64,000 nt of DNA from Antedon bifida (taxonomy: Eukaryota > Echinodermata > Crinoidea > Comatulida > Antedonidae): positions 9,264,085 to 9,328,084 of the forward strand of contig OY727103.1 in assembly GCA_963402885.1 (NCBI GenBank), in the 5' to 3' direction. Below are positions 6,113 to 40,492 of the stretch, in pieces. The notes below the pieces were generated by a model. The model saw only the letters and a list, made by a program, of their open reading frames with translations, was not told the origin of the DNA and did no database searches. Numbering within the stretch: the first letter of the stretch is position 1; every line of letters starts with the position of its first letter. Position numbers and translations under genes: made by a program.

Positions 6113-6642
6113 CTAATCTTCTAACTGTTCAGCGACAACAGTCATCGCATTTGCCTTTAAATCTCCGATAAAAGACTGCAATTTATCTTCCCTAAGTACA
6201 CCAATATGCTCAAGGTTCAATATCAAAATCCACTGGTTATAACATTGTTCATAAGAAACATCGTTTAGATGACGGATCTTTTGAATATTTTCTCTCGAAA
6301 GTGCGTTGCCGAATTTAATCAGCTTCTGTCGATACAGAGAGAAGGATTTAATTGTACGATCCACTTCACCGTACTTCTTCTTTATCAGCGCGTTGGCTTC
6401 CAGAACACCATTGGTTCCAGTTACATTAATCATATCAACAATAACGTCAATGTTGGTAGAGGTAAGACGGCCAGAGGATTTCAATAAATTGAATAATTCC
6501 ATCGTGCTTTCCGTCTTTTGTAGATCACTGTAAGATGTTATTAGGTCTTTGCACAACACCTTCAATTTATCAAGGACACGACGCTTATCATACCAGCTTG
6601 ATACTTGTACCAACATTGTCTGAAATTCCTTCTCGATTAATT
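6113..6642 (-). CDS. Terminal exon: divergent pair of death-effector folds and stop
   Basis: A 530-nt exon, phase 1 in (acceptor ttctttgtacag), open to a TAG stop. The first fold has LDKLKVLCKDLITSYSDLQK and MELFNLLKSSGRLTSTNIDV; the second has YRQKLIKFGNALSRENIQKI and LILNLEHIGVLREDKLQSFI. Layout and spacing match the paired folds of the other two DED exons, but identity is low, so this is an older copy. It is preceded by Glu at the junction. A candidate poly(A) signal lies about 100 nt further on. Confidence 0.75.
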
Positions 6643-9600
6643 CTGTACAAAGAATAACAAAAAACAATTAATATTTGTTTGTATAAATTGTATTAAGCAT
6701 AGTAAATTAGGGAGTACAATTGGATAAGTTATTATCAATCAATTTAGATAATTTACCAGATAGTTTTTCAGATTATGATTAGAAAGTTATGAAACACAGT
6801 TAATGTAATAATAAATGTCTACTTCAATACAACAATATAAACTACCAATTTTATTTATTTTTATCTTTTTATTCAACAGTCTTTGTGTTAATAATGATAT
6901 AACAATTATAAATTTAAGTGTATCATCGTTATCATTATCTACTCTGACATTATAATGTCTTGTTGACCATTACCATATCATTATAATCCTTATCTAATTT
7001 AGCATACCACCTTGATTTAAACTAGATGCCACAATAACACCTGTGATAAATAAATATAAACCAAGTAGTTCCATAAAGAATAGACATTTCAGATTCGTAG
7101 TGTTACATTTTAAGATGCATCCAATGTAAGATCACCAACGAAAACATTTAATCTAATGTATTTGTGTTAGAATTATGTTTACAAGGTTGAGGTGGAAATC
7201 GTAAAATCAATGCAAATCGTAACAAATAATTTAAAATAAATCAAAATATGCGACCTAATACTAAACATCAAAAAACATAACATCAGGTGATTAATTTGTT
7301 GATCAAATATCATTGATCAAAATATCTAGGATAAATATGATACATACGGTCATATAAACATCTTTATTGGAGGTCTATTAGCAAATTTAATGAATATAAA
7401 ACTGGTCGTTACACTATGGAATACCATCATTTAGCAATTACTACTACACTTTGCACTCTACACCTTAACCACGACGAAGCTTAATAATTATAACATTTTC
7501 TTGACAAATGTTTGTTTCTAGATTGTCACTCATAAAACCTAAAAGATAGTTGTAATCACTAGAAGGCAAAGCCAAGGAACATGGTTTTGGTAGTGTTGTA
7601 TATTATTATTTAGATACACATTTGCACAAAGCGATTCAAATTTTGTTCATCATCTAAGTCATCATCACTATCATCATAATGAAAATAACCAAGTCATTAT
7701 TATCTTTATTTACTGGTAATTTACCTTCGCCTGGATTACTTTGGCGACTCATTGGTGCGGTTCACTTTCGTCACTATTGCCAAAAGTGATCAAAGGTTGA
7801 TGTCACTTTCAACATTATTGTAATTATCTAAACGTGTTCATTATTTGTACGCAATGTTGTAAAATTGTTTATACACATTCCTTTATAACAGTTCTCTGTT
7901 TTGTTATGTTGACGTGTGACAGTGAGTTCTTAATGAAGAAAGTTGTACAGTTTAATTAATATTCACTTAATATAAACCAATACAATAATATATACAACAT
8001 ACCTGTAGTTGAACTGGATGCCCCAACAACACCTGTAACAAATAAACAATACAATAACTATTTCCAAACAAAATATAAATTCCAGATTTCTTGTGTTACA
8101 TTATAATGATCATAATGATCTAAAACTATAATTTTAGGTATCCTAACTTAACTAAATAATACTAATGTCAGCGCCTTATCAAACGAGCTTTGATGGTGAA
8201 AACAAGACTTGTTGAAATTGTACTAGAATACACATTTTAGCATAATGTTTATACCAATTATTGAACATTATCGGTATTTGTAAGTGAAAGAATATATTAA
8301 CTAGAATTTAATTCGTCACTTTGACGAATTATAGGTGATCATTTTTATCGTAAGTAGTAGCTTCTTTGCACGTTCGTTAAGACGACTTGCAAATTTCTCT
8401 AGTTTGCCTGGTTCATCTTTCAATTCTTCGTTACTCTCTAATTTGAAAACTACATCCCAGATATTTGTTAATCCAAAATGTTCAAGGTTGTAGTAGGCAA
8501 TAACATGTGATAAACTGTCTCCTTCAACTTGATGTAAAGCAGCAAACAACCGTTTTCGATATGGCGACATTGGTTTTATATTAGTTTGAGTTTGTTTAAT
8601 ATTGTTATCCTGAATATAATCAAGTACAAGATGTTCAGCAACCTTAAATTCTGTCAGTTTTGTGACCTCCAGGAGTAACTTGACATTAGAAGGTTCGATA
8701 TAACCTTTTGTCTGGAGTTTATTAAACAAATTGTGTGCTGTTAAGCCACGCCCTTCAAAGTCTCCTAAGGGCAAGTGATCGTATAGGCATAGTTTTACCA
8801 AACGACAGTGATCACCAGCATAATGTTTACTAAGATTTGCTTTTAAGTCCTTGAATTTCTCATTCAAGTCTGCCATTTTATTTACTTTTTGGTTTGCTGC
8901 AAAAACAAAGTTTATACCAAATGACCTAAGTCTACGTAGGAAGTAGATTCTTCTCCGTGCCTTTCTAATAATGTTACGTGTGTTAATATGCCATTTCAGA
9001 TCATTTGAAATATAAAATTAATGTGAAGTATGTGTGAAGTCTTTTACCTATTGTCTTCTAAGGACCAAATTCATTCCATTTTGTAATTTATGACCACTTG
9101 TTGGTTATCAAACATTATTGAATAGTTTCTTAAAAGAGTGCTAAATATTCATAGATTATTTACATACCTTTTCTGTTAGCTTTGGTTTAAAATAGACTGT
9201 GTCAAAATAACAAAATATATTCAAACATCGTGACAATACCCAATATCATTATTATCTTTATCTACTGGTAATTTACCTTCACTTGGATGACTTTGGCGAC
9301 TCAGTGGTACGCCTTCGCTTTCGTCACAATTTCCTAAAATTGATCAAAGTGCGATGTTACTTTAACAATTATTGTAATTATCTAAACGTGGTCATTATTT
9401 GTACGCAATGTTTGTAAACATTGTTTTTATACGTATCGCAAATGTCCTTGTTCTGTGTGACAGTGAATAATTAAGAATTTTTTAACTTTTAATTAATATT
9501 CACTTAATCCATAACCAAAACCATAATAAATATGACGTACCTTGATTTGAACTGGATGCCTCAACTACACCTGTAAAAATTAAACAATACAATAACTATT

Positions 9601-12600
9601 TCCGTACAAATTAGAAATTCCAGATTCTTTTTGTTACATTATAATGAATACTGTGTCGTATCAAAAACTGTTTTACAATTCCGTGTGATGACAATTATGG
9701 GTAGTGAGTTATTAATGGAGGAATTAGTTACTTAACATACACTTAATCTCTAAACCGTTATTTATTTAACTCTGATAGAGAACATTGTGACAACAATAGA
9801 TAAAAACACATAAGCATATAAAAAAGCTCAACATATTCACGAAAAAAGAATAAAAAATACAATTTAGAAGGCGGATAAAACAATATAAAAGTTGAAAAAT
9901 TGAACATTTAAAGATATCAATTATAGTTGAATTTTAAATTGTTAATTAATAATTGTATATATTTAAAATTTGGGAAAATATTAATATTGCACAGAATTTA
10001 GAAAAAGACGAAGGAGTTGCGTAGCGATTTTTTTCCGTGTCAATTTGTTTTTAAATAGTCCTTAAATGATTTAGAGACACTACATTTCTAATTTTAAAAG
10101 GAAGAAAATTTAAATAAAATATAACATACCTAGATTAGAATTTGATGCCCCAACAACACCTGTAACAAAAATAGTTTTCGTTGTGTTACATTAAGATGCA
10201 AGAGTGTGTAGCGTAAAAATCATCACAAAATTATTCAAAAATCAACGGAATCTGTAATATAGGCCTATTTTTGTATGAAGAATACTTCAAAACGAGTAGA
10301 GCCCAATAGAAAACGTAAAAATAAAAACAACCCTTAGACAATAAATGTGTTGGCTGATATTATGATACATTCGATCATTACAAACATCTTCTAGATTGTA
10401 CGGTAAGTTGTTTGGCAAATGTCATGGAAAAAAATGGTCGTTACATACCAAAGCGGGTAATACATAGATTGAAATAAATATAACAGATTGAATTACAGAC
10501 TATAATTAAAAGTGTGTCAAAATAGAGTACTGTATTTAAAACTTCTGCTAGTCATAAATAATACTAATAGTATAGATACCTTGATGTCCTTGTGATGGCA
10601 CATGCACTGGTGCTACCTCTGGCACATGCACTGGTGCTACCTCTGGCACATGCAATGGTACTACCTCTGGCATATGCACTGGTGTTACTTCTGGTACATG
10701 CACTGGTACTACCTCTGACACTGGCTCAAGCTCTTCATTTGCCTGAGGTACTGAGTCTGGCTCTGACTTCGGCTCTGTCTCTGTATCAGGCACTAGCTGA
10801 TTCGCCTGGTTAACTCCTGACTCTGATTCATAAAAAAATTAGTTGGTGTTTATCAAATCGCATTTGTGAACATTACGATACATGTTTGACATTGTAAAGT
10901 TTTAAAAAGTCATTTTAGGTTTTTAAAACCATTCATCGTCTGCTGACAGTGTGCAGTCAACTGTTTACCTATTGTCTAACTAAGGACCAAAGTTTTTAAA
11001 TTTTGTAATTTAAAAACCACTTAAAAACATTATAGTTTCTTAAAAGAAAAAAGAATATTCATAGGTTATTTATTTAGTTAGTATTGGCTTAAAATAGACT
11101 GTGTCAAAATAACAAAATATATTTAAACACATCGTGACAATACCTAATATCATTATTATCTTTATCTACTGGTAATTTACCTTCACTTGGACGACTCAGT
11201 GGTGCACCTTCGCTTTCGTCACAATTTCCTAAAAGTGATCAAAGTGTGATGTTACTTTAAAAGTTATTGTAGTTATCTAAACGTGTTCATTATTTGTACG
11301 CAATGTTGTAAACAATATACGTATTACAAATGTCTTGTTCTGTGTGACAGTGAATAATTAGGGTAAGAAAGTTGAAACTTTTAATTAATATTCACTTAAT
11401 CCATAACCAAAACCATAATAAATATGATATACCTTGATTTGAACTGGATACCCCATATTTCCAAACAAAATATAAATTCCAGATTATTTGTGTTACATTA
11501 TAATTATCATAATGATCTGAAACCACAATTTTAGGTATCCTAACTTGACTAAATAATACTAATGTCAGCGCCTTATCAAACGAGCTTCGCTGGTGAAAAT
11601 AAGACTTGTTGAAATTGTACTAGAATACACATTTTAGCATAATGTTTATCCCAATTATTGAAAATTACCGGCATTTGTAAGTGAAAGAATATATTAATTA
11701 AATTACCTCTATCAAGTAGTAGCTTCTTTGCACGTTCGTTAAGAAGACTTGCAAATTTCTCTATTTTGCCTGGTTCATCTTTCAATTCTTCGTTACTCTC
11801 TAATTTGAAAACTACATCCCAGATATTTGTTAATCCAAAATGTTCAAGGTTGTAGTAAGCAATAACATTTGATAAACTGTCTCCTTCAACTTGTTGTAAA
11901 GCAGCAAACAACCGTTTTCGATATGGCGACATTAGTTTTATATAACTTTGAGTTTGTTTAATATTGTTATCCTTAATATACTCAAGTACAAGATGTTCAG
12001 CAACCTTAAATTCTGTCAGTTTTGCGATCTCCAGGAGTAACTTGACATTAGAAGGTTCGATATAACCTTTTGTCTGGAGTTTATTAAACAAATTGTGTGC
12101 TGTTAAGCCACGCCGTTCAAAGTCTCCTAAGGGCAAGTGATCGTATAGGCATAGTTTTACCAAACGACAGTGATCACCAGCATAATGTTTACTAAGATTA
12201 GCTTTTAAGTCCTTGAATTTCTCATTCAAGTCTGCCATTTTATTTACTTTTTGGTTTGCTGCAAAAACAAAGTTTTAGATGACAGTAATAATTGTACCAT
12301 CTTATTATCAGAAATTCAATTTGAATTGTTATCTCAGTTATCATCAATCAAAAGAATAATAGTTTGGCTTACTGCCATAATAAAATCATAAACATCCATT
12401 TACAAATATTTCTGCTTTCATCATTAGAATGGTACATAGTATATCTAAATAAAAAATGGCTACATTAATGTATGTCCGAGGTAATGAGCCTGGCTCTGAT
12501 TCTGGCTTTGTCTCTGTAACTGGCACTAGCTGCTTTGCCTCGTTAGCTTCTGACTCGGATTCATAAACAAAAATATTTTATTTGGTGTTTATTCATTCGC

Positions 12601-15600
12601 ATTTGTGAACATTATGATATTGAAATGAATGATGAAAATGATCATCTGTGATAGCCATTGCCTTTTTTAGAAGACGATCAGAAAATATTTTCTCCAAAGG
12701 CAATTGGGTAGATCCAATTATACGCGATGCGGTCTTGACTATTCTATTTAGGTCACGCCTTTTATTTTCGGTAGCGCTACCGAACCATACCATTAAAAAA
12801 TACGTTATGACACTCTGAATAACTGACCTATAGAAGGATGACATTATAGCAGAGTTTATGCCAAATGACATAAGTCTACATAGGAAGTAGATTCTTCTCT
12901 GGGCCTTTCTAATAATGTGTTAATATACCACTTCAGATCATTTGAAATATAAATGTGAAGTATGTGTGACGTCTTTTTACCTATTGTCTAACTAAGGACC
13001 AAAGTCATTACATTTTGTAATTTATGACCACTTGTTGGTTATCAAACATTATTGAATAGTTTCATAAAAGAGTGCTAAATAATCATAGATTATTTACATA
13101 CATTTCTGTTAGCATTGGTTTAAAATAGACTGTGTCAAAATAACAAAATATATTCAAACACATCGTGACAATACCCAATATCATTATTATCTTTATCTAC
13201 TGGTAATTTACCTTCACTTGGATGACTTTGGCGACTCAGTGGTGTGCCTTCGTTTTCGTCACAATTACCTAAAAGTAATCAAAGTGTGATGTTACTTTCA
13301 ACATTATTGCAATTATCTAAACGTGTTCTATATTTGCACGCAATGTTGTAACATTGTTTATATACGTATCAACAAATTCCTTTATTACAGTTCTCTGTTT
13401 TGTTGATGTGTGACAGTGAGTTCTTAATGAAGAAAGTTGTACATTTTAATTAATATTCACTTAATCTAAACCAATACCATAAAAAATATGACATACCTGT
13501 AGTTGAACTGGATGTCCCAACAACACCTGCAACAAATAAACAATACAATAATTATTTAAAAAAGAACGACGTTTCGAGTCGAAACGTCGTTCTTTTTTAA
13601 GCGTTATTTTTATATTATGTATTTACAATAATTATTTCCATAAAAAATAAAAATTCCAGATTATTTGTGTTACATTATAAAGATTAGGCATATAATGATC
13701 TGAAACCACAATTTTAGGTATTTTAAGTTACCTACTAAATAATACTAATGTCAGATGTCTAATGTCTTATCAGAAGAACAAAGCAATATGTGAAGGGATT
13801 CTAAACATTGATGAATGTAAGAACACGTTTGAAATGAAATCTAATAAGGATTTAGGCAGTGATGGTTTATCAAACGTTTTAGAATTCCATTGACACCCTA
13901 TGTAATGCTTTTAATTGTTATTTTAATAAATGCCAATGGTCAGTTATCGCAACAACAAAGGAACAACAGAGGAATAATCTCTTGATGTGCAAACATGGTA
14001 TTAAAACAAGTTTTAAAAAGCAGGAGATCGATAATGCTATTACTAATATATTACAATTGATAGTTTGTGACATAATAGATACTGATCAGAAATGTTATAT
14101 TAAAGGAAGCTTCGCTGGTGAAAACAGTACTTGTTGAAATTGTACTAGAATACACAGATAGTTTTAATAAATAAATTGTCATTTGGTTTAGGTCAGGACT
14201 CAATACAATGGGTTGAGACTATCGATTACAACGAGTAATGGATCATTAGAAAGGATTTTGGAAGAATATTGGTATTATACAAGGAAATGGCTATAAATGT
14301 AAGAAGTAACATGAGGTTAAAATTGCTTAGTTAGCTGACGATACAATACTTTTGGCTAGACTGAAAAAAAGTATTTAAACTTTAGACTTAAATGAAGTAG
14401 AGTTGTTTTATAAGCTAATAGCAGCATGTTGTAACAATGTATAGAATATCAATAATGATTCTGCTACAGTAGTACAGTACTTACTACTGGTAAGAGGAAT
14501 GAAGATATCACAGCTAATAGCAGCATGTTTTTGTTTTTCAGTTTCCTGTGCTGTAGGGATGAGTAAGAGTCCTTCATGAAGAAAGTAGTGTATTAATGAA
14601 AATGTACTTTAAAAAAGAGAATAAATTTAAAGATTCTTACATCCAAACTGCCGCTTGTAACATGTGACATCCATTGTAATAGACTCGCCAGTTTCTGTGC
14701 ACGTTAACTTCCTGCATTGGAAATCTTTAAGAATTTGAAAATGCTTTTTGTCTGATTGATCACTACACTGACAAGGAATGCATCTCTTGAATGGAATCCC
14801 CCTTCTACCACCATCTTTAGTTTGCTCGAATGACTTCTCAACTGTTGACAAAACCTAAAGATATAAATTTAATGTTGATTTGAATTTAATTGAATTTAAG
14901 ATATCATATCAACAAATATGAAAGCATCAATGATGCAGTAGCTCACAATGTAAGACATTTTATGAGAACTTGATTCAGAATAAATCTTTTAATAGGCAGT
15001 ACACATTAAAATTACTTACAATTCAATTCAAAAACATGGATGTAATTTGTTTACGCTGTTTACTGTTCTACTCTGTGTCCAAAGTTGGATCACCGCCTTT
15101 TTTAATGACTTAGCTTCCCGGGCCTAACATTAGTCAATGATTTACGATGGATAAATTTAATAAACAATAGGTGTGTTATAAAACAAATAATGAATGTTTT
15201 GTATTCATTGAATGGAGAGAATATGTTATTCATTGACTGCTCTATTTTCAACTTGGCTCTCTGCTTCGTTAAAAATAGTGCAGATAATTGTTCAACTCAT
15301 GAAATATTCTTACCATTCAACTCATAAACATTCATTATTATACAGGTACTATACATTGCAATGTTGGAAAATAATTTGTAATTGATTTGTAAAATCAGTA
15401 TACATTGTATATATGCAGACATTTTCAGACATCAAGCAAACCTAAGAGAAAACTTTCTACGTGTATTTCCATAAACTACCTCCAAATAGATAGATAACAT
15501 AACTGGTATAGAAACATACCAATTTACATGCTTCAGCTGAAGGTTCCTCCTTACTCGTTTTGTCAAAAGAATCTGTTCTTCTAATAGCCATCTAGAAAGT

Positions 15601-18600
15601 GAAAATAGATGTGATGTTTTGTTATCAGAATTTAGTTTTATATGCATTTAAAGTAAATTCTGACATGACAGATCAGGGAAAGACTAAGCAACAATATTTA
15701 ACTTTCATAATTTAGTGATATTTATTGAACATTAGAGATTATATATTACCTTTAACAAGAACTTTCGCTCATCATTCTTAGTAATATATTTGTCAAGAGA
15801 CAAAATCACATGATGATTTTCGTTGAGGTTAAGTTCTGCATAATTACATGACAGTATTGGGTCAACTCCTTCCTTTTGAAATTTATTAAGGAATTCAATA
15901 ATTAAATATGGAAACAACACGTCTGGCAGATATCCCTCAAAGTCGTAATAGATAGGCCTACTGATAGATTGTAAATCATCAGGTACTTGTCTCACTTGAC
16001 TTTTCTTGACAGCAAGTCGCAGTGGCACAAAAAAGGACCGTTTTCCATTTCCAGATTTCTGAAATTGTTAATTCATAACAATGCCATTTAGATTACTTTA
16101 AGCATAGTAAGCAAACTAGAGATACTCTATCATTTAGACATTTTCAGTAGAAAATGTATTCAAACAATGTCTGAGCATTAAAAATCCAAACTATTGAAAT
16201 TGATTAAACCATAATACGTTTTAACCCAAATCTTACATGCATAAAATGACAGATTAAAGAAACAAAACCCACTGTAGATGTACTTACCACATCTTGGCTG
16301 CTGGTTGTCTCCTTCTCACAAATGAAACCTAATTGAATCATCAGTGCTACAAGAAACTCAAAATTCTTTCCGCTGTCAACTTTACTATCTTTCCATAATT
16401 TACGCAACAAGTCTTCTTCTAGTATGCCTTTGTCAAGCTTATCAAAAGATGTTCTAAATTTAGCGGACTAAAAAAAACACCAACTATCAACCGTATATCG
16501 TATTTTGTGTTTATAACAGTTGTGAGGATGACGGAAATAGATACAGTAAGCATTTAGAATATAGATGAACCATGTGTTGGTATAATACAGTATTGTGGTT
16601 TAATCATTTCACTGTGCGTAACAGGTGATTTTTATTAAATTGCAAAAACCTACTGAGATAATTTTGTAAATATTTTTGTGGTGGGTAAAAGGTTGGTCTA
16701 CGGTTTGGAGTAAAACAAATGGTAATTTGCATACTAATGACATCATTACAGAAGACAATATTAAAAAATAAGGTCGCATGTAGTGCAGGAAAAATAGTTT
16801 TAATACATTGCAAATATATTTAAGTTTATCAAAAATATAGTGTGTGCTATAAATTATAGGCAAATATGATTACTGTAAATAATTGTTTTTACCATACCCA
16901 TAACCATAATGATGGTTATATGCAGTTCATATGTTTATACCCGGTAATACCGGGTACACGCAGTGAAATGATGCCTTACAGCATACTTTTATTTTATCTA
17001 TAGAAAATGTTAAGCATCTTTATAAAATATTATCAACGACAAATTCTTTGCTAAGGAATAATAAATTACACAGAACAGGAGTAATTATACTACTGTAACA
17101 CGTTTTTACAATGCAAGACATTTATGAGTCTACTCACTGGATTTTTTGGGGGAACCACAGTTACAAATTTGGTGACAATTTCAACCAGCCTCATCGGATC
17201 TAGCACGACTTGATCCCTTAATAATTTGTTGTCAGGCATGTAAACAATTTCCCCAAGATCGTACAAGAAGTTAAGCAGGACTGATTTCTCTTTTTCGTCA
17301 ACAATACCATTGGTTCTTGTCAGATGTTTGATCTAAAAGAAATAATAATTACTATTATTTAGAATTAAATTAAAAAAAATATGAAATCATATTATGTTTT
17401 TGTAACATGTGGGTATTCCATGAAAAAATAGTTTGAAATATTTAATTTCAAGGACAAAACCTTTTCTAACACACAATTTATAAATAAAACAATTGCAGTA
17501 AATATAAAAGATGAAAATATGATTTTGCATATTGTAATCTAATTAGCTATGACATTTACTTATATTTAGAAACGTTAATGTTTTTTTTTTGCTACTTCAT
17601 ATTTTCAAAAATATTCTTTTCTGAAAAAAAAAAAAAAAAAAAACAAATAAAATTTACCTCTTCTAATGGACACAAAGAAAAGGAGGGGTGTTTTTTTCCT
17701 CTTAGATCATGTAAATCACATCGAAAACGCATCCACTTTAAAGGAAAAGGCTGTTCTAAAGCTTTCATAAGTTCATCAATAACTTGTTTGAGATCACTAA
17801 AGCTCTTATCTGTAGTTGGTTGGCTGTTTTCAATGGCAAAATATTTGTGGTAGACATGATTTCCATATGGTTTTGTTTTAAGCACATCTCGAATAATTTT
17901 AAATGCCTTTTCTGCCTGTTTGTAAATAATTTTAATAACAGTTTACGCGGGTGTCTAGAAAACTCAGATCTAGAAAACTCAGATCTCAGATATATCTGAG
18001 TTTTCTAGATCTAGAAAACTCAGATATCTGAGTTTTCTAGATCTAGAAACTAGAAAACCCAGATCATCAAATGGATCGTTCCATTATTAATAGAGGGTAC
18101 CTTGTTTGAAATGCTACACTGAGTATTATACGTTTTCTTACTACTAATAATAATTATTGTAACCTGTAGAAGCAGCCTACGACTTAAATAATTAAGAAAT
18201 ACAGTATACAATACACCTTTTAAAATGTAGGCTTAGCATTTAGGCCTAGTAGCTAAGCAAACTCAATTCAAGGCTCAACATGTTTATTTATTTATTTATT
18301 TTATTTCAACAATATTTAATGAGGGTGGTCCATCCAGCCTCAGCTGATCATTAGGGACCCTCAAACAATACAAACAGTAAATACAAAAAAAACTAGACAT
18401 GAAACTCGTCACTTTGACGAGTTAGTTATCCGCACCACGACAAACGCCACGTGCACGTCATACGTTGGAATATTGCACACAGATAAAGATTATGGCATTA
18501 TGACAAGAACTGAAGAATATGACATGCTGTTAGTGCTGAATTTTGTGTCATATAGTATACATGCAAACAGTATAAGCTGTATACATATTACATACAGTGT

Positions 18601-33600: not shown

Positions 33601-36600
33601 ATCTTCCTGACATTAATTTTTCCAAAAATCAGGTTATACCAATGATATAATGTTGATTTTGATGGCGATTCTGCAAGTACTGTAATGAGTTTGTAACGAA
33701 ACAGTTCAACCCAAAAAGGTAAAGAAAGAAAGGAACCAAGTCTTTTTGTCTCTCTTCTTACTCTTACCATGCCATGATTTCTTAATTTCCTTTATAATGA
33801 GTACACCCAGAAATATGATTACACCAATACCCATTCTTTGTAGTAGCATACATATTGTAAAGATGACTGCAGCAGCAACTACTAAAATTATCCACCAGTG
33901 CTCTGAAATGAAGAGGAAAATGTTTCAATACTCAACATGTTTTTATTTTAAATTGTTGGGAGATTTGAATGATTATGAAGTTCTTGTCTTATTATTTGAT
34001 TATTAAACATATTCTCTGCACATCCTAACACCATTGTTTCTGAATTGGCACATTATTGTGAGCGTGGCAATCACGATCTAAGGCTTCTAAGTCTGATGAC
34101 TTGCGAGCTTTGCCATCTTGTTCCCCCTACCTTTCCATTTGTTGTTTTCTAATTGCTTGTTCGTGAGTTTCTTATTGGAGGTTGGGAAAGGCACGACTTA
34201 AAGTTCAATGAACTTACTGTGACCTCCATCCACCCATAATTATATACACTGTATATATATGTTAAAACTGTTTATTTGATGAGTGGAAAATAAACGAAAT
34301 GAAACCCTCTAAATCCTGGATCTAATCCAGTGGCCATATTCACCAATCACACTTAAGTGAGATATTTCCCTTAAATCCTAAGAATTTCCCTTAAATCAAG
34401 AAAATATTAAGGGTTTTACTTAAGTGGTATTCACAAAGGGTTGAGGGTTAAGGGAAACCCTTAACTTGGTCTATTTTCCCCTTAACTTTTAAGGGACCTC
34501 AGAGGTCCCTTAAAAGTTCCCTTAACTATTCAGTACCTTGGTTGTGCTGACGATTCTGTATGTGCGAGTGCTATGCCTACTTGTTGTAGATAGCCCCGGG
34601 CTAGGCTAGGTCGGCCGTTCCAAGGCAAAACCACGTAACTCGCATTTTTGTCAATTTTGAGATTTTTACATTTGGGGAATTATTACAAATTTATGAACAA
34701 CCTGTAAAAATTTCAGGTTTCAGAGATCATTATTTTTAGAGATAGTACCACGTATCTTTAAGCAAAAAACAAATAATTCTGGTATTTTCCAAGGCAAAAC
34801 AACGTATCTACCAGATACGTTGTTCTGCCACGGAAATGCATACGATTTTCACTTTAAATTCTCACAATCAGCTAAGTTACGTAATTTTGAGACAGAAACC
34901 GCTGATGCATGATGATATGCATAGCAACGATCTTAACTAAAAGTAAAAGATATATTAAACAATACTAGGCTTATTTAGGCTAGACAACTAATTTAATGTA
35001 TTAAAATTTATTCTAAGAATTAACTATATTTACGAAAAAGTTCAGGCAAGCTTGAAACTAGGCTAGGCTATTATTTTTGACAGACCTATCTAATCTAGCC
35101 TACGCCTAGTACCCCAGTACTGTCATTGGAACTAGGCTAGGCCTAGCCTAGTAGGACGGCCGTCTTTGCATTGTTGTACATAGGCCTTCTAGTAGCAGGC
35201 TAGGGGGTAGGCTATTACATAATAATGTAAGTAAGTAAGTCTATATCATAAATAGTAGATCCAAAAGGCTAAGCCTAGCTTCAAATGCACTCTTTGTTAA
35301 GACAACCTAGTTCGTAGGCATCATTAGTGATCGCAGCCCTCCCTGTTGTTCAAAAAAGTTTCAATCCATTGTTTTTAAAATCATCACAGTTACGTTGTTT
35401 TGCCATGGAATGACCACAGTTACGTTTTTTGCCACAGAATATCACAGTTACGTTGTTTTGCCTTAGAAATGACTTTCATTCTATACACGTCATTTCCAAG
35501 GCAAAACAACGTATCTGTTAAAAGTGGTAATAACTTTTGATCAAATTGATTAAATTATTTAACATTTTGTATTTAATAATAATTATTATTTATATATACT
35601 CATGCACAATTTCACATCATTACGATAATTTGTTGTTGAAATGCAAACACTCAAACTTCAATTCAATTTTTCTCGAAAGGCAACATTTTGTAGTTACTGT
35701 ACGTTGTTTTGCCTTGGAACGGCCGAGGTAGAGATGCTAGGCCCCCTGTTGGTCTGCCCAGTAACCAGCCTAGGATGCATATGACTCAATACAGACAGGT
35801 TTAGGCCTGCACAGAATGTTGGTTTGTTAGTAGCATCTACGCTAGACCTATTTTTCTTGATCCTCATACAAATTAGTCTAGGTCTTTTCATTTACTTGTT
35901 TTTGTTTTGACTGCCATTTTCTTTTTATTGATCATCGTCACGTCCACACACTTTCTCCTCGTCCTCCGTTCCCAAATCTCCTTACTCTTTTTTTAAATAT
36001 GCAAATTATTTTTAGAGAGGAAAGTGATTGGACCATAGGGGAATTAAATCCTCTGTGATTGGACAATGGGACAACTCATGAATATTTATGATTATTTTTA
36101 CCCTTAAAGATGTATTGTCCCTTTGTCAAATTCCAAAAAAATTTAAAATAAAAGATTTCGAAAAAAAGTGGGTCATTTTGAAGTATCATAATAGTTATTA
36201 ACTTTCACCAAAAATTAGTCGAAAAAAAAATCATTTAACTGAAATACAGACATTTTTTGGTTCAAAAAATAACTTTGACTTCCAGTCAGAGTTTTCGATC
36301 AAAACATATCTCATAATGCAACGCGCTTATTTGAATACTCTGTATGCATAATCATAAAACTTCCTCGCGATCTGTGTGAAAACACCTTCTCAACCATGAC
36401 GAGTTGTAAACAATCCTAATTAGCATCATGCATAATGTATAATCATGGTTTGAAATCTTTGTTTACTTTCGCTCGCGACGATTTTCCAGACGAAATGTAA
36501 TCAAATTAATTTAGCTGTTAATTACGTAAAATTGTTGTTTTTGGCTCGAATTTTCGACTTAAAGTGAATAACTTTAATATTACTTTGATATGGCCAATTT

Positions 36601-39600: not shown

Positions 39601-40492
39601 TTATGAAATACACGTTTTAAGGGATATTATTTAGATCATTGAGGTATATAACCACAGTACATCTTATGATGATGAATTTGTTGATTTGTCGAAAACTATG
39701 TACAGTAGGCTATCAACACAACAGTAACATTTTAGTTGCATTAACCTTGACAAAATATATTGAAATTGAACGTAATTTTCACCAATAGATGCATTTTTAG
39801 ACCTCTACTAGTTGCTCTTTTGGCGCTCCATAGAAACGTCAATATTGAACATGGAGTATGCGACAAAATTCACAAACCGTGTGCAAGAAACATGTCTGTA
39901 AAATTCATCAATTTAAAGGATTGAGGCTATTTGTTACCTTTTCTGTGATTCTCCATCGTAAAACTAAAAGTATAGGTCTAGGTAGGCCTAACCTATGGCC
40001 TAGCTAGGCCTAATTCTAAATAAGGTGGTATTCAGGATAAAGTTCCTTTAAACACATTGTTGGAGTTGGAGTCGTTCATAAAGACAGGTGCGAAACGGAA
40101 CGGAACTACTAACGCCCCTCTAGCCCTAGCTAGTAGTGTAGTACGTAGATGGCTGAGCCTAGATTAGACTATACTAGGCTAGGCCTAGCTAGTTAGTAGA
40201 GGCCTTAGAGACCTGCCCTATAGGGCGGTAGGCTAGCCTACTAGGCCTCTAGCCTAGGCCAGGCCTACTACTAGGCGGCCCGCTTAGCCTAGTTTGTTAG
40301 CTAGCTAGTCCGGCCTCCTAGTCCTAGGACCTAGGCTAGGGCCTTCTTAGCCTATTGTAGGGCCTATAGCCTAGGATACGAATATAAGATCCAAAAAATA
40401 CCTGCTATTAAAACAATCAATACAGTATAAAGATTCCGATTATGATATGGTATGATAATATTGTCACAAAACTTACTTCTTGTGTTTGACAT
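6113..40492 (-). CDS. Membrane-anchored Roc-COR GTPase with tandem death-effector domains (whole split gene)
   Basis: The gene is assembled from exons listed separately. Every junction keeps frame: phase 1 to exon 4, phase 1/0 alternation through the duplicated linker exons, phase 0 from exon 7 to exon 15, then phase 1 throughout the cassette tail. Domains in order: a short N-terminus with one or two hydrophobic helices, a Roc GTPase (P-loop GQEGVGKT, FNIWDHGGQ, THKG), a COR domain, Ser/Pro/Asn-rich linkers, and paired DED folds. Roc-COR proteins are Ras-like switches that dimerise through COR. DEDs are death-fold adaptors of apoptosis and innate immune signalling (FADD, caspase-8, cFLIP). 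By inference this is a membrane-bound GTP-controlled death-fold signalling platform. The ATG has an in-frame TAG 18 nt upstream and A at -3. Which cassettes are used together cannot be read from DNA. Using all but the stop-containing exon gives 3999 coding nt. Confidence 0.72.
7008..7040 (-). CDS. 30/33-nt linker microexon, copy 5
   Basis: Acceptor tttatcacag, then VIVASSLNQ. Two donors are possible three bases apart (GTGGTA or GTATGC); both keep phase 1. This is the last cassette before the terminal exon. Confidence 0.55.
7725..7780 (-). pseudogene. Decayed 57-nt linker exon
   Basis: One base shorter than the intact copies, and its acceptor TTTTAG has become TTTTGG. It would break the frame if spliced in, so it is treated as lost. 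Confidence 0.6.
8003..8032 (-). CDS. 30-nt linker microexon, copy 4
   Basis: Phase-1 symmetric, VVGASSSTT, acceptor tttgttacag, donor GTATGT. Confidence 0.65.
8301..8351 (-). mobile_element. Helitron 3'-end remnant
   Basis: On the minus strand: a hairpin (arms aattcgtca / tgacgaatt, 8310-8330), eight bases and CTAG, followed by the host T. The hairpin and terminus match the ends at 18393 and 19918. The rest of the element and the host splice donor are gone. Confidence 0.7.
8316..8896 (-). CDS. DED exon, copy 2: ends in an acquired stop codon
   Basis: Nearly identical to the 12-kb copy up to AKKLLL. The donor and the DRG codons are then replaced by TIKMITYNSSK and a stop. The added bases are a Helitron 3' end (hairpin plus CTAG). 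Both DED folds are complete. As read, this exon can only be a terminal exon, giving a shorter isoform with two DED-pair modules; skipping it keeps frame because the neighbours are phase 1. I see no strong poly(A) signal just beyond it, so it may be mostly skipped or non-functional. Confidence 0.7.
8910..8966 (-). mobile_element. LINE reverse transcriptase scrap
   Basis: Encodes RKARRRIYFLRRLRSFGIN, matching the beginning of the LINE fragment at 12596-12910, and then runs straight into the DED acceptor. The LINE was therefore present before the cassette unit duplicated and was mostly deleted here. Confidence 0.6.
9277..9333 (-). CDS. 57-nt linker exon, copy 2
   Basis: Phase-1 symmetric, NCDESEGVPLSRQSHPSE, with acceptor and donor as in copy 1. 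Confidence 0.65.
9541..9570 (-). CDS. 30-nt linker microexon, copy 3
   Basis: Phase-1 symmetric, VVEASSSNQ, acceptor aatttttacag, donor GTACGT. Confidence 0.65.
10130..10159 (-). CDS. 30-nt linker microexon, copy 2
   Basis: Phase-1 symmetric, VVGASNSNL, acceptor ttttgttacag, donor GTATGT. Confidence 0.65.
   Translation of the reverse strand: MLLGHQILI
10580..10822 (-). CDS. Pro-rich repeat exon with HVPEV octapeptides
   Basis: A 243-nt phase-1 symmetric exon (acceptor tttttttatgaatcag, donor GTATCT). It starts SGVNQANQLVPDTETEPKSE and then has five 8-residue repeats of the form V-x-P-V-H-V-P-E, each 24 nt long. This is an extended, flexible spacer between death folds, likely variable in repeat number. 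An antiparallel open frame on the plus strand is only its shadow. Confidence 0.7.
11181..11228 (-). CDS. 48-nt linker exon, shortened copy
   Basis: Same as the 57-nt exon but lacking three codons (RQSHPSE has become RPSE). Still phase-1 symmetric, with acceptor acttttag and donor GTAAAT, encoding NCDESEGAPLSRPSE. Confidence 0.62.
11433..11455 (-). pseudogene. Decayed 30-nt microexon
   Basis: The 3' part and donor of the microexon are present, but the 5' part and acceptor have been replaced by intron-like sequence that joins directly to atttccaaacaaaatataaa. Confidence 0.6.
11707..12258 (-). CDS. DED exon, copy 1: two death-effector folds
   Basis: A 552-nt phase-1 symmetric exon (acceptor tttgtttttgcag, donor GTAATT after LLLDR). 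Fold 1, about residues 10-90 of the exon product, has LVKLCLYDHLPLGDFE, then HNLFNKLQTKGYIEPSN and LLLEIAKLTEF, closely following DED1 of caspase-8-like proteins. Fold 2, about residues 105-180, has YRKRLFAALQQVEGDSLSNV and DVVFKLESNEELKD. A Met lies seven codons inside (MADLNEKF), so an internal promoter could also start here, but the frame is open to the acceptor. The exon is intact and the likely functional copy. Confidence 0.8.
12474..12556 (-). pseudogene. Decayed copy of the Pro-rich exon
   Basis: Matches the start of the exon at 10580-10822 (Q-L-V-P-x-T-E-T-x-P-x-S-E-P), but the acceptor CAG has become CCG and the repeat part and donor are missing. Confidence 0.65.
12596..12910 (-). 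mobile_element. LINE reverse transcriptase C-terminal fragment
   Basis: Reads RKAQRRIYFLCRLMSFGIN, then SFYRSVIQSVITYFLMVWFG and RIVKTASRIIGSTQL, the usual region after the palm of CR1/Jockey-type LINE ORF2. No full element is present. Confidence 0.8.
13212..13268 (-). CDS. 57-nt linker exon, copy 1
   Basis: Phase-1 symmetric, NCDENEGTPLSRQSHPSE, between an acceptor ending acttttag and donor GTAAAT. Acidic and Ser-rich linker; no fold expected. Confidence 0.65.
13497..13526 (-). CDS. 30-nt linker microexon, copy 1
   Basis: Phase-1 symmetric, VVGTSSSTT, between acceptor atttgttgcag and donor GTATGT. With exon 15 it yields Cys at the junction. It is the first of five or more copies. Confidence 0.7.
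13545..13637. mobile_element. 67-bp hairpin insertion with 13-bp target duplication
   Basis: A 21-bp perfect inverted repeat with a 3-base loop (13556-13600) followed by an A/T-rich tail, flanked by acaataattattt at 13545-13557 and 13625-13637. The paralogous introns near 8040 and 9590 read acaataactatttcc without the insert, so they are empty sites. Confidence 0.75.
13790..14400 (+). mobile_element. Decayed L1/Tx1-type LINE reverse transcriptase
   Basis: In shifting frames: CKNTFEMKSNKDLGSDGLSN, IISLLMCKHGI, ITNILQLIVCDIIDTDQKCY followed by IKG, LVEIVLEYT, and LADDTILLARL at about 14331. The order matches L1-type RT blocks. Stops and frameshifts throughout. Part of it (the GEN-x-LVEIVLEYT region) recurs at about 8190-8240 and 11580-11640 because of the cassette duplication. 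Confidence 0.7.
14641..14854 (-). CDS. Exon 15: Cys-rich end of the COR region
   Basis: A 214-nt exon, phase 0 in and phase 1 out. It has VLSTVEKSFEQT followed by a cysteine cluster (CIPCQC, then CRKLTC) and a final GC at the junction. A Cys-rich segment of this kind closes the COR region in several invertebrate Roc-COR proteins. The switch to phase 1 here opens the cassette tail. Confidence 0.78.
14860..15510. other. Intron with foldback MITE
   Basis: Intron between exons 14 and 15. Apart from the foldback repeat at 15172-15338 I see nothing of note. Confidence 0.5.
15172..15338. mobile_element. Foldback MITE (AATAATGAATGTTT family)
   Basis: Ends aataatgaatgttt and aaacattcattatt are inverted, and the interior folds on gagaatat / atattct and the gactgctctattt / aaaatagtgcagat arms. 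Other copies: 41874-42060, 47920-48064, and partial ones at 24628-24676 and 40795-40866. Confidence 0.7.
15520..15591 (-). CDS. Exon 14: COR domain small exon
   Basis: A 72-nt phase-0 exon, MAIRRTDSFDKTSKEEPSAE and then ACKL, between acceptor ttcactttctag and donor GTATGT. It continues the COR C-terminal lobe and reads directly into VLSTVEKSF of exon 15. Confidence 0.78.
15750..16058 (-). CDS. Exon 13: COR domain, C-terminal part
   Basis: A 309-nt phase-0 exon: RSFFVPLRLAV near the start, RPIYYDFEGYLPDVLFPYLI in the middle, and a C-terminal beta-rich stretch. F-x-P-x-x-L and D-F-x-G-x-LP are conserved in metazoan COR domains. Confidence 0.82.
16288..16467 (-). CDS. Exon 12: COR domain
   Basis: A 180-nt phase-0 exon with GILEEDLLRKLWKDSK and FEFLVALMIQLGFICEKET. 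The G-x-L-x-x-x-L-x-x-x-LW and LMxxLGFI patterns match the second winged helix of COR. Acceptor gtttttttag and donor GTAAGT are good. Confidence 0.85.
16468..17130. other. Intron, nothing recognised
   Basis: Intron between exons 11 and 12. Overlapping short minus frames at 16604-16863 have no family features. A small palindrome acccggtaataccgggt lies at about 16938. Confidence 0.5.
17138..17332 (-). CDS. Exon 11: COR domain, winged-helix part
   Basis: A 195-nt phase-0 exon containing LLNFLYDLGEIVYMPDNKLL followed by RDQVVLDPMRLVEIVTKF. The Leu-x-Asp-Leu-Gly-x-Ile-x-Tyr and LDPxxLV patterns are hallmarks of the COR domain, the dimerisation module of Roco proteins. Confidence 0.85.
17658..17915 (-). 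CDS. Exon 10: end of Roc and start of COR
   Basis: A 258-nt phase-0 exon, 86 codons (AEKAFKIIRDVLKTKPYGNH onward, through SFSDLKQVIDELMKALEQPF to CPLEEV). The helix-turn with an IRDxL start and a PxxWxRF-like KWMRFRCDL is typical of the Roc-COR junction. A 4.2-kb transposon lies 33 bp upstream of its acceptor. Confidence 0.82.
18281..18390 (-). mobile_element. LINE 3' tail
   Basis: TTTATTTATTTATTTTATTTC followed by the complement of the segment at 50320-50413 (gagggtccctaatgatcagc). Same LINE family as the 50-kb fragment; only the 3' UTR end is left. Confidence 0.7.
18393..19905 (-). mobile_element. Non-autonomous Helitron, tandem copy A
   Basis: The minus-strand 3' end has the hairpin aactcgtca-aag-tgacgagtt, a short spacer and CTAG before a host T. 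The 5' end is at TTCTTCTTTCC near 19905. About 1.51 kb, no coding capacity. It matches copy B along its length (for example gccatatgatgacgtcacaa in both). Confidence 0.72.
19918..21431 (-). mobile_element. Non-autonomous Helitron, tandem copy B
   Basis: Same orientation and length as copy A and 12 bp from it, with the same hairpin and CTAG end at 19918-19921 and the same TTCTTCTTTC start near 21431. Recurrent blocks include tgatgacgtcat and gcgcgtgcgcgcgtaacttc. Head-to-tail tandem insertion is known for Helitrons. Confidence 0.72.
21466..21558. repeat. Two perfect hairpins with 14-bp arms
   Basis: 21466-21497 and 21527-21558 each have 14-nt arms and a 4-nt loop. Both arms begin GTTATCCGC, the word that follows the terminal hairpin in Helitron copies A and B. 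They lie just past the 5' end of copy B and may be relics of related Helitron ends. Confidence 0.7.
22309..22488 (-). CDS. Exon 9: Roc domain G4 region
   Basis: A 180-nt phase-0 exon encoding a helix (WTNLQFILSYILSVYSHSRI), an acidic loop, and the strand PTILIVGTHKGKLGK. Roc proteins normally have THxD or NKxD at G4; here Gly replaces the Asp that reads guanine. The donor is GTTAAT, an unusual but GT-starting site; phase 0 to exon 10 supports it. Confidence 0.8.
22638..23672. mobile_element. TTAA-flanked piggyBac-like non-autonomous element
   Basis: Left end TTAACACTTTGACTGCCA, right end TGGCAGTCAAACTGTTAA. TTAA at both edges is the piggyBac target duplication. About 1 kb, no transposase frame. 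Internal copies of the right terminus (around 23585-23660) suggest an internal duplication. It lies in the intron between exons 8 and 9. Confidence 0.7.
23696..23785 (-). CDS. Exon 8: Roc domain core strand and helix
   Basis: A 90-nt phase-0 exon encoding MFMTLQALYIVVFDLSKPLD and then DLATFLDSTG. The ALYIVVFDLS strand follows switch II in Roc domains. Donor GTAAGT gives phase 0 and an in-frame junction to exon 9. Confidence 0.85.
23801..24110 (-). mobile_element. LINE/SINE-type 3' tail
   Basis: Contains ggatttatatagcgctttt and aagcgctgtacaa, a conserved 3'-end hairpin word of CR1/L2-like LINEs and of SINEs that borrow their tail. Next to it is TTTATTTAAT-rich DNA. Confidence 0.5.
24115..24440 (-). 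mobile_element. tRNA-derived SINE
   Basis: On the minus strand gggttcgaatc (around 24367-24377) matches an RNA polymerase III B box, preceded by a possible A-box region and followed by an unrelated body. No coding capacity. Confidence 0.55.
24690..25000. mobile_element. Short inverted-repeat element (MITE)
   Basis: Ends AGGATTATGGGTCACATGAT and its inverted copy ATCATGTGACCCACAATCCT about 290 bp apart. No clear target duplication. Intronic. Confidence 0.6.
25152..25309 (-). CDS. Exon 7: Roc domain switch II (G3)
   Basis: A 158-nt exon, phase 1 in and phase 0 out. It encodes an acidic helical stretch (DTERQLDKDVIKKAEENNET) and then FNIWDHGGQLIYHGIHR. The W-D-x-G-G-Q motif is the DxxG/Q switch II of the Roc family. 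Donor GTAAGTATG is strong. Confidence 0.88.
25614..25686 (-). CDS. Exon 6b: acidic linker exon, duplicate of 6a
   Basis: A 73-nt exon, phase 0 in and phase 1 out, encoding IDMKQPTDDDEGIVVDYNND and then ENKD. Donor GTATGT is good; the acceptor tgacaccaaaaataa side is weaker but ends in CAG. It joins in frame to exon 7. Confidence 0.55.
25969..26003 (-). CDS. Exon 5b: short linker exon, duplicate of 5a
   Basis: A 35-nt exon, phase 1 in and phase 0 out, with acceptor tttttctctacag and donor GTATGT, encoding EMILRAKKTIN. It occupies the same place in the second block as exon 5a in the first. Because 6a ends in phase 1 and 6b starts in phase 0, it can be used in series or as an alternative to 5a. 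Confidence 0.45.
26170..26203 (-). pseudogene. Decayed duplicate of exon 4
   Basis: The 3' end of exon 4, including its donor, is repeated here with few changes (W-K-E-A-K-A-D-S then GTAAAC). The 5' half and acceptor are missing. It marks the start of a second block of exons 4-5-6 and shows that the linker region arose by tandem duplication. Confidence 0.6.
26485..26632 (-). CDS. Exon 6a: Asn/Asp-rich linker exon
   Basis: A 148-nt exon, phase 0 in and phase 1 out. It encodes VVKKPPIDDDNVI followed by a low-complexity run rich in Asn, Asp, His and Ser. Its start resembles exon 6b (KQPTDDDEGI), with the same phases, so the two are duplicates. It would form a flexible acidic loop inserted in the Roc domain. 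Confidence 0.55.
26640..28020. other. Intron, no gene recognised
   Basis: Intron between exons 5a and 6a. It has two short similar words, gacgggttactgctag at 27846 and cacgggttactgctag at 27957, but no exon-like frame. Confidence 0.45.
28032..28096 (-). CDS. Exon 5a: linker exon between switch I and switch II
   Basis: A 65-nt exon, phase 1 in and phase 0 out, with acceptor tttgtttttttag and donor GTATGT. It encodes 21 basic residues (NPSKQYTKCVTGKMRTIKPE plus K). No domain is recognisable. It matches exon 5b in phase pattern and position within a duplicated block, which supports it as real or recently real. Confidence 0.5.
28454..28539 (-). CDS. Exon 4: Roc domain switch I region
   Basis: An 86-nt exon, phase 2 in and phase 1 out, encoding FEKEHIVTDGIAVIRT and then SKTWTEAKADS. 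The HIVTDGI block, with the Thr that contacts the magnesium ion, is the expected G2/switch I of Roc GTPases. A decayed duplicate of its 3' half lies at 26170-26203. Confidence 0.8.
28706..28853 (-). CDS. Exon 3: Roc domain P-loop (G1)
   Basis: A 148-nt exon, phase 1 in and phase 2 out. It encodes an amphipathic lead (DFQYAYNEALKGESVKVN) and then LKVIGQEGVGKT followed by CIINALLGKE. The GxxxxGKT P-loop, preceded by a helix with AYxEALKxG, is the classic start of metazoan Roc domains. Acceptor caaattttcag and donor GTAAGT are good. Confidence 0.85.
28860..29583. other. Intron with a possible Pol III-type repeat
   Basis: Part of the intron between exons 2 and 3. An 81-codon plus-strand frame at 28959-29204 has no recognised family. 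At about 29520-29555, ctggttcaattcctaatgag followed by a T run resembles a B box and Pol III terminator, perhaps a SINE relic. Confidence 0.35.
29584..31038 (-). mobile_element. Non-autonomous Helitron, family 2, copy 1
   Basis: Minus strand: starts TCTATATATAAATTTACGTA after host A; ends with a long hairpin (ggtacgcgagc-gaa-gcgagcgtacc) and CTAG before host T. 1455 bp, no coding capacity. A near-identical relative lies at 51377-52703. The A|T target without duplication is the Helitron rule. Confidence 0.85.
31039..32469. other. Intron, no gene recognised
   Basis: Low-complexity intron sequence. A word gatcgagtctc at about 32130 resembles a B box, but no A box or structure accompanies it. 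Confidence 0.4.
32470..33352. mobile_element. 883-bp terminal-inverted-repeat element
   Basis: Ends GGGCGGATTGCAATAAAG and ATTGCAATCCGCCC inverted; subterminal repeats of cttaagcctaag type on both sides; flanked by CTA on both sides (32467-32469, 33353-33355). A 3-bp duplication fits PIF/Harbinger-like elements. No transposase. Confidence 0.7.
33768..33902 (-). CDS. Exon 2: membrane-anchor exon
   Basis: A 135-nt phase-1 symmetric exon between acceptor ttcatttcag and donor GTAAGAG. It encodes 44 residues with a strong hydrophobic stretch, WWIILVVAAAVIFTICMLL, a short QRMG turn, a second shorter hydrophobic run (GVIIFLGVLII) and then basic KEIKKSWH. This reads as a signal-anchor or a hairpin membrane anchor placing the following GTPase in the cytosol. 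It splices in frame to the P-loop exon, giving Asp at the junction. Confidence 0.65.
34612..35725. mobile_element. 1.1-kb nested element with CGGCCGTTCC ends
   Basis: Left CGGCCGTTCCAAGGCAAAAC and right GTTTTGCCTTGGAACGGCCG are perfect inverted copies, flanked by AGGT on both sides (a possible 4-bp duplication). The word acgttgttttgcc recurs inside several times in both orientations. Confidence 0.7.
36104..36658. mobile_element. TTAA MITE, copy 1 (complete)
   Basis: 555 bp from TTAAAGATGTATTGTCCC to GGGACAATACATCTTTAA. Other copies: 43573-44071, 44293-46163 (split by a LINE), 54901-55257, and a 3' part at 50640-50843. Either TTAA or TA could be the target duplication. Confidence 0.75.
36986..37250. 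repeat. Three-copy tandem repeat, about 90-bp unit
   Basis: Each unit contains cacacaaataccctgac, agcagtgcatt and aataaatggatcataaagta. Units are about 90% alike. Intronic. Confidence 0.85.
37881..38257. mobile_element. TA-flanked inverted-repeat MITE
   Basis: Ends TAGAGTTCTG and CAGAACTCTA, and about 75 bp of imperfect inverted similarity (gttgctagccaaccaaaaaa against ttttttggttggctagcaac). TA termini fit a Tc1/mariner-type element. The host DNA on both sides (37790-37875 and 38285-38360) is a direct duplicate. Confidence 0.72.
39487..39544. repeat. AT-rich perfect palindrome
   Basis: Arms of about 25 nt built on aatacattt / ttttataaaacatatttaat and their complement, with almost no loop; it could form a cruciform. 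Confidence 0.75.
39970..40375. repeat. AGGCCTA-rich palindromic cluster
   Basis: Dense overlapping words aggcctag, ctaggcct and tagcctag. Similar smaller clusters lie at 35040-35290, 44150-44220, 48640-48700, 49820-50050 and 54300-54350. No period is constant. Confidence 0.7.
40477..40492 (-). CDS. Exon 1: start codon and first five residues
   Basis: Sixteen coding nucleotides, M-S-N-T-R plus one base, before the donor GTAAGT. An in-frame TAG lies 18 nt upstream of the ATG and -3 is A. The leftover base joins the AG of exon 2 to give Lys, so the phase fits. The short length makes this exon less certain than the others; the phase match, strong donor and upstream stop are the support. Confidence 0.55.

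Follow-up and report, generated by a model that had tools for sequence, protein, structure and literature searches.

DAPK1, a Roco group 3 protein, combines a Roc-COR unit with a death-fold domain situated C-terminal of COR. The locus described here has a comparable combination; however, the death-fold part of DAPK1 is a Death domain and not a tandem death effector domain (DED), and a kinase precedes the DAPK1 RocCOR. LRRK2 shares the Roc-COR, has a kinase and repeats, and is not known to have a DED of its own. It binds FADD, which leads to caspase-8 recruitment, however this contact is made in trans and was mapped to the FADD death domain (PMC5104429, partial text). Roc-COR modules dimerise mainly via COR, nucleotide-state control being under discussion for the family, and Roco group 3 is described as the group with an added death domain (PMC6337361, partial text). 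With caspase-8 and cFLIP the likeness is in the fold of the tandem-DED prodomain and extends across both DEDs; unlike these proteins, the 19-exon chain predicted here was found to have no protease or pseudo-protease frame, and its DEDs have no RxDL motif.

That Roc-COR proteins with death domains exist was already known, as the first-pass annotation of this DNA had said. Placozoan and other animal ROCO genes carry CARD or death domains, i.e. a death fold together with ROC-COR (PMC11378527, partial text), however neither DED nor death effector appears in the main text of that survey. ROCO sequences are also found in innate-immune TLR- and MyD88-like proteins of Aplysia, one of which has a TIR and a death-like domain (PMC9334734, partial text); these are TIR-based, and the word DED is absent from the main text. 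The DED-NACHT receptors of amphioxus, sea urchin and Nematostella join an NTPase switch to a DED (PMC2575513, partial text), but the NTPase is NACHT and not Roc-COR. The brown-algal ROCO genes are numerous, have shuffled modular exons and a proposed immune role; there the LRR exons are shuffled, whereas here it is DEDs and linkers (PMC11378527, partial text). A single protein having both Roc-COR and caspase-8-like tandem DEDs was not found in the PMC papers searched; the first-pass annotation knew of no described protein tying a membrane-anchored Roc-COR to serial DEDs. One paper names Roc and the COR domain as well as death effector domains and echinoderms, and the portion of its text examined contains no joining of Roc-COR with DED (PMC8195603).

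The window is the whole 64,000-nucleotide stretch of Antedon bifida DNA that was analysed (C16:9264085–9328084); the assembly searched has 315.6 Mb in 27 contigs. Our main reading, with a probability of about 0.8, is that the window locus is a member of a crinoid-expanded Roco subfamily consisting of Roc-COR, short phase-1 linker exons and one or two tandem-DED modules with the caspase-8/cFLIP prodomain fold, in which the GTPase would gate DED clustering. On the minus strand, a chain of 19 exons extends from 28853 to 6113. It was built from minus-strand splice borders with homologous proteins as a guide. The phases agree, and the joined frame stays open over 1171 aa once a base is added to complete the first split codon. 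All 19 exons are preceded by AG, and GT follows each except the last. The order is Roc, COR, DED, and the part from the P-loop exon to the COR end comprises 13 exons. The tail exons all begin in phase 1; GNC1, DED A, GNC2, ESE2 and GNC3 end in phase 1, and DED C is terminal. The features are as follows; the relatives cited (P0001–P0041) are computed NCBI protein models, except for the bacterial entries.

28706..28853, minus strand: Roc exon with P-loop GQEGVGKT, phase 1 to 2, 77% identity to P0001
28454..28539, minus strand: Roc exon, switch I region, phase 2 to 1 (borders and homology)
28032..28096, minus strand: Roc insert exon GNPSKQYTK..., phase 1 to 0 (tblastn with P0005, P0006 and P0008, E 0.017 to 1.4e-5)
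25614..25686, minus strand: Roc insert exon IDMKQPTDDDEG..., phase 0 to 1 (tblastn with P0001, E 3.6e-5)
25152..25309, minus strand: Roc exon with WDHGGQ (G3) (borders and homology)
23696..23785, minus strand: Roc exon VVFDLSKPLDD (borders and homology)
22309..22488, minus strand: Roc exon, G4 region VGTHKGKLG, motif Asp absent (borders and homology)
17658..17915, minus strand: Roc end and COR exon C1 (borders and homology)
17138..17332, minus strand: COR exon C2 (borders, homology and Pfam)
16288..16467, minus strand: COR exon C3 (borders and homology)
15750..16058, minus strand: COR exon C4 (borders and homology)
15520..15591, minus strand: COR exon C5 (borders and homology)
14641..14854, minus strand: COR C-terminal exon C6, ends in phase 1 (borders and homology)
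13212..13268, minus strand: 57-nt linker exon GNC1, phase 1 to 1, resembling by eye a linker of P0002 (GSSDEDEREGTSQSHQQSE) and the counterpart of that linker in P0004
11707..12258, minus strand: tandem-DED exon A, 552 nt, phase 1 to 1 (borders, Pfam, profile and fold)
11181..11228, minus strand: linker exon GNC2, 48 nt, phase 1 to 1 (borders)
10580..10822, minus strand: Pro/Glu-rich repeat linker exon ESE2, 243 nt, phase 1 to 1 (borders)
9277..9333, minus strand: linker exon GNC3, 57 nt, phase 1 to 1 (borders)
8316..8896, minus strand: tandem-DED copy B, a near-duplicate of A, with an in-frame stop
6113..6642, minus strand: tandem-DED exon C, terminal, stop codon inside (borders, Pfam and fold)
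33768..33902, minus strand: hydrophobic (TM-like) exon, membership doubtful, the N-terminal anchor of the first-pass annotation
40477..40492, minus strand: 16-nt ATG exon, not above chance, the start exon of the first-pass annotation

The weakest donor in the chain is GTTAAT, that of the Roc G4 exon. The earlier proposal of one exon chain with agreeing phases is retained for Roc, COR and three tandem-DED exons, which lie on the minus strand in that order with AG/GT borders; the 16-nt start exon, the membrane anchor and the joining of A, B and C in a single chain are not supported. The earlier exon list had missed the short phase-1 linker exons between COR and DED as well as the two Roc insert exons (28096–28032 and 25686–25614), which encode the segment between Roc motifs G2 and G3. 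Two candidate exons were left out of the chain, i.e. ESE1 near 12553–12476, where the borders tried gave a stop in frame, and GNC4 near 7800–7640, where the acceptor was not placeable.

Other sequences in the window are a 5S rRNA-like sequence in an intron of the Roc part (24431–24538, minus strand, 49.1 bits, gathering 38), a 37-bp minisatellite of 22.5 copies with several frames open (62386–63217), and reverse-transcriptase and retrotransposon-like frames, named by eye only (44577–45815 and 56297–60591, minus strand). Retroelement-like remnants adjoin DED A and B.

Pfam was applied to a predicted product of 13 exons and 680 aa that includes the start and TM-like exons of the first-pass annotation and does not have the two insert exons. 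Roc (PF08477) scores 56.8 bits (cut-off 27, E 3.3e-15), and COR-A (PF16095), which directly follows Roc, scores 51.3 bits (cut-off 35.3, E 1.5e-13). Both are over the Pfam cut-offs. COR-B gives no match in the product at E up to 1; it is over the cut-off in P0041 (28.5 vs 27) and weak in P0033 (18.9). The Roc-COR sequence matches solved bacterial Roco structures, 4wnr (1.1e-10) and 3dpu (3.8e-10), and LRRK2 (2.4e-4), and the closest named proteins are from Antedon mediterranea (82% identity). The Roc domain is divided among seven exons; the window is absent among the 149 matches listed in a genome-wide Pfam Roc search in which 150 of 299 candidates were scored. An NCBIfam search gave a sub-threshold small-GTPase match only. 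The kinase and the Death domain that mark the DAPK family are both unmatched: neither has a match in the 680-aa product at E up to 1, and Death has none in the DED exons at E up to 10.

The established definitions of the G motifs were used for comparison. The P-loop GQEGVGKT and the WDHGGQ motif are present, but the fourth motif reads THKG and has no Asp, thus guanine selectivity may be altered. Among pattern matches, and leaving aside the first unit of P0033, none of 24 Antedon units has the Asp; six of seven Anneissia proteins have it, three of these six being isoforms of one locus. The earlier description of the protein as GTP-switched is weakened by the missing Asp.

For the DED exons the Pfam scores are 17.7 (A), 16.0 (B) and 32.2 bits (C), all of which are under the cut-off of 35.9, so the DED claim could not rest on sequence alone. 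Relatives that do exceed the DED cut-off are P0018, P0028, P0034, P0037 and P0040. A single-sequence PDB search with DED A gave no match. When an alignment of 18 DED rows was compared with PDB sequences, caspase-8 prodomains were the top match (3.9e-5) at columns 3–157, which span both DEDs. The AlphaFold2 model of DED A has a pLDDT of 93.1 and a pTM of 0.87, with 6+5 helices of at least four residues; that of DED C has a pLDDT of 90.9 and a pTM of 0.87, with 7+5 helices. In both models the third helix of the second bundle is a three-residue turn only. The best Foldseek matches of DED A are caspase-8/cFLIP tDED assemblies (E 5.6e-5, TM 0.71), with six matches at E up to 0.001. The best of DED C is likewise a caspase-8/cFLIP tDED assembly (E 8.7e-4, TM 0.78), the one match at E up to 0.001. 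On the basis of these models, exons A and C are predicted to be tandem DEDs of the caspase-8 kind, i.e. double helical bundles. The first-pass annotation had named tail exons that do not model as six-helix death folds as evidence against it, and A and C both model as death folds.

The RxDL motif of DEDs is situated near helix 6, and no R/K-x-D-L is present in exons A, B or C. DED B is a near-copy of A, with 97.5% identity over 562 nt. It runs into an in-frame stop (8896–8316) and no phase-1 donor was seen; A, B and C therefore do not constitute a single open chain, and A with C or A with B are the possible combinations. DED B may be either an alternative terminal exon or a decayed copy that lost its donor.

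A search with the Roc-COR query returned 32 proteins, of which 29 are from A. mediterranea and Anneissia japonica, one is from the mussel Dreissena and two are bacterial or unnamed. Pfam analysis of 30 relatives (E up to 0.01) shows COR-A in 23, Roc in 22, DED in 11, Death in three and ankyrin in two. In the NCBI models of A. mediterranea, Roc-COR is followed by an A-type tandem DED in P0002, P0004, P0006 and P0009 and by a C-type DED in P0001 and P0005. The Anneissia protein P0018 is just over the cut-off for Roc (27.1 vs 27) and for DED (36.6 vs 35.9), and is over it for COR-A. Anneissia P0040 displays two tandem-DED pairs in series after the COR end (two Pfam stretches, the pairs assigned by eye); its COR end was placed by homology, and the protein has no Pfam Roc or COR match. 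In P0034, tandem-DED segments flank the Roc-COR part on either side and the C-terminus is hydrophobic (two Pfam DED stretches, the C-terminal pair by eye). DED precedes Roc in P0026, P0028 and P0034, which shows that the domain order is not fixed in the family. When the DED region of P0002 alone was the query, all seven proteins found (P0002 included) were matches of the Roc-COR query too.

A profile search returned 38 proteins and added P0041 of the brittle star Amphiura filiformis, in which a Macro domain is fused to Roc, COR-A and COR-B; this protein shows no DED match at E 0.1. Two other A. mediterranea models are of a different make-up. P0033 has an ankyrin-like start, two Roc-COR units in series and a C-terminal hydrophobic segment. 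P0035 has a kinase, Roc, COR-A and Death, a DAPK-like set, and its best kinase match is PK_Tyr_Ser-Thr.

Genome searches with exon A and with exon C each gave at least 150 matches (150 scored of 648 and of 667 candidates, respectively). Some of the matches listed are fragments of one copy, and the weaker C matches (about 30–40% identity) possibly belong to other DED classes. A- and C-type DED exons are located on C8, C7, C15, C12, C10 and C16, and dense arrays are present at e.g. C15:2.84–3.32 Mb, C7:32–36 Mb and C8:14–17 Mb. For type-1 COR, 39 places were derived from 103 matches (70 of 1071 candidates scored). A listed A match lies within 9 kb on the same strand downstream of 15 of these places and upstream of five, with none on the other strand, both lists being partial; with 59 C places added, a DED is downstream of 16 and upstream of five of the 39 places, again with partial lists. 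Around the 150 A matches, a C match within 6 kb is downstream in 15 cases, upstream in two and on the opposite strand in none when all 150 C matches are used. The corresponding figures are 13, one and zero when 59 of the 150 C matches are used, 91 weaker matches or second fragments having been dropped and all 150 A matches kept. The window DED A and B are each counted in these A–C figures.

The order of Roc-COR followed by DED is repeated in colinear loci, i.e. P1 on C16, and P5 (two units) and P6 on C8. P1 is a near-identical segmental duplicate at C16:9118001–9158000, about 150 kb from the window locus and 97–99% alike in long aligned pieces. The duplicate region contains a run of 7500 N. 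The missing exon C1 of P1 falls in a run of N and does not point to a loss. Locus L039 has COR, linker, DED A, linker and DED C within 5 kb. P4, L038 and L040 have a DED exon, and no Roc-COR match in the stretch read. The first-pass claim that a Roc-COR is tied to serial DEDs is supported by the annotated models in two other crinoids, the recurring exon order in this genome and the fold prediction, and in our judgement the fusion is very probably real in the family.

A second Roc-COR class, that of the first P0033 unit, precedes the DED exons at P2, P3, L039 and L041. At P2 and P3 the DED A exon has 93% and 91% identity, respectively, with that of the window, but the head exons that could be matched are 27–38% identical to the window over longer stretches, and belong to the different class. 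The tail thus appears to be a cassette common to two Roc-COR heads. At L037 (C7:9685001–9692000) a tandem-DED exon of the same module stands ahead of a 987-aa open frame with NACHT (74.8 bits, cut-off 26.7) and an LRR match, as in DED-NACHT receptors. A wider reading is that one tandem-DED cassette with phase-1 introns on either side has moved by shuffling between two Roc-COR heads and receptors of the NACHT-LRR kind. Crinoids would thereby have a mass-amplified repertoire for innate sensing, in which GTPase-DED and ATPase-DED receptors would converge on shared DED filaments. We hold this tentatively, at somewhat less than even odds. The amplification and the sharing of the cassette are the most unusual features. 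Elsewhere in the genome, C15:13.46–13.55 Mb and C15:17.2–17.33 Mb contain more than 20 long open frames (about 919–1030 aa) that are apparently intronless, in which the Roc match inside a frame is broken into two parts at least about 1 kb from each other.

It is possible, though improbable, that the Roc-COR-DED genes on C8 work and that the locus on C16 is in decay, as one of a pair of recent segmental duplicates that carry retroelement insertions and broken DEDs. The closeness of P1 to the window locus and the missing donor of DED B are in accord with this, and at P2 the C-type DED matches are in three overlapping frames and carry a stop. The DED A copies drift as if unconstrained: in the six C16 DED copies pooled, there are 38 nonsynonymous and nine synonymous changes, as expected without constraint (two-sided p 0.40). 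Comparisons with the close C16 copies, in which changes are few, give dN/dS values of 0.9 (L013) and 2.7 (L014), and A versus B gives 1.6. Diversifying selection on these copies was considered and rejected, as 38 to 9 is indistinguishable from neutral. However all 19 exons of the chain are open with canonical borders, and the dN/dS of the Roc-COR part against three paralogous units is 0.342 (9 of 11 exons compared), 0.334 and 0.387, values which average both lineages. DED A compared with L015, L038 and L040 shows 0.456, 0.372 and 0.207 (the value for L037 was not computable), and DED C compared with L039 shows 0.315.

Slightly less probable is the presence of two adjacent genes, a Roc-COR gene ending after C6 and linkers, and a DED gene that extends from MADLNEKF, with a non-coding first exon before it, to DED C. 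The DEDs would then be free proteins of caspase-8-inhibitor or adaptor type. The first-pass annotation had named a gene starting at MADLNEKF as evidence against the fusion. The Met of this sequence is kept in all six C16 DED A copies inspected, which makes a separate start possible at the window locus. In addition, the DED exons at L037 and L031 have in-frame stops just upstream and no acceptor was found before the ATG, so that the DED exon there looks like a first exon. The same phase-1 acceptor is however present upstream of DED A in all six C16 copies, which argues that DED A is not a first exon, and the exon head of DED C is without a start codon. For the family a separate start is not supported, since L030, L032 and L035, the three inspected C8 copies that follow a Roc-COR unit, lack the Met, and L041 (C14) has Thr in its place. 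The NCBI models join the parts, and P0009 has GNTMADSETLDSF internally. With the exon phases, the models in two other crinoids, the recurring order and the missing Met of the three C8 copies taken together, one gene is probable at the window locus, its splicing being predicted.

A simple scan of 45 returned proteins found hydrophobic stretches in 13. Such a segment is before the P-loop in none of the 14 models that extend more than 20 residues upstream of it, whereas seven models have one after COR (P0008, P0009, P0011, P0013, P0021, P0033 and P0034). Of the others, the stretches of P0015 and P0017 are within COR or Roc sequence, that of P0029 is at the end of a short model, those of P0016 and P0035 are internal by position, and P0032 is bacterial. 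The window TM-like exon has a weak likeness to the segment at the C-terminus of P0009 (E 0.001, four sequences being compared). The first-pass reading, an N-terminally membrane-anchored Roc-COR with three DED pairs, is therefore very improbable. In its favour, the phase (1 to 1) of the TM-like exon fits the Roc P-loop exon, and the exon also lies upstream of Roc in P1; but P1 is a recent duplicate and its copy has a 39-nt in-frame loss. No counterpart before Roc was found at P5 or P6, and DED B contains a stop. The start exon of 16 nt is not beyond chance: in 30,098 bases there are 12 phase-1 ATG exons of up to 60 nt that have a GTRAG donor, and five if the donor must be GTRAGT, this exon being included in both counts. 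P0011 and P0013 of A. mediterranea have a hydrophobic double segment directly after the COR end, and in P0013 an A-type DED region follows the hydrophobic segment, which suggests that TM exons may be tail cassettes too. The window TM-like exon may be such a tail cassette of the Roc-COR-DED family instead of an N-terminal anchor.

For a Roco subfamily member with tandem DEDs, our main reading, a mechanism can be proposed. By analogy with the Roco proteins that have been studied, the Roc-COR would be expected to dimerise in a nucleotide-dependent manner. Its dimerisation or nucleotide state would set the spacing or exposure of the DED pairs, and dimers or higher assemblies would nucleate DED filaments. 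Caspase-8 tDEDs polymerise, e.g. the tDED filament entry 5l08, which is among the Foldseek matches of DED A. The filaments might recruit DED partners, i.e. caspase-8- or FADD-like proteins or the DED-NACHT receptors of the same genome. LRRK2 acts through FADD and caspase-8 in trans, thus a version in cis is plausible (PMC5104429, partial text). The earlier picture of a platform for clustering DED partners is kept for the joining of Roc-COR to DEDs, with control by nucleotide as a proposal, and is not supported for the N-terminal anchor.

A Roc-COR of the type found in LRRK2, the Parkinson's kinase, in one chain with a caspase-8-like tDED would make the link between Roco proteins and caspase-8 directly testable. 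The recurrence of these parts in large families suggests a signalling system, in cell death or immunity, that is so far unstudied. Given at least 150 matches for each DED type (648 and 667 first-look candidates) and a NACHT-LRR frame headed by the module, crinoids seem to possess a large and as yet uncharacterised repertoire for immunity or cell death.
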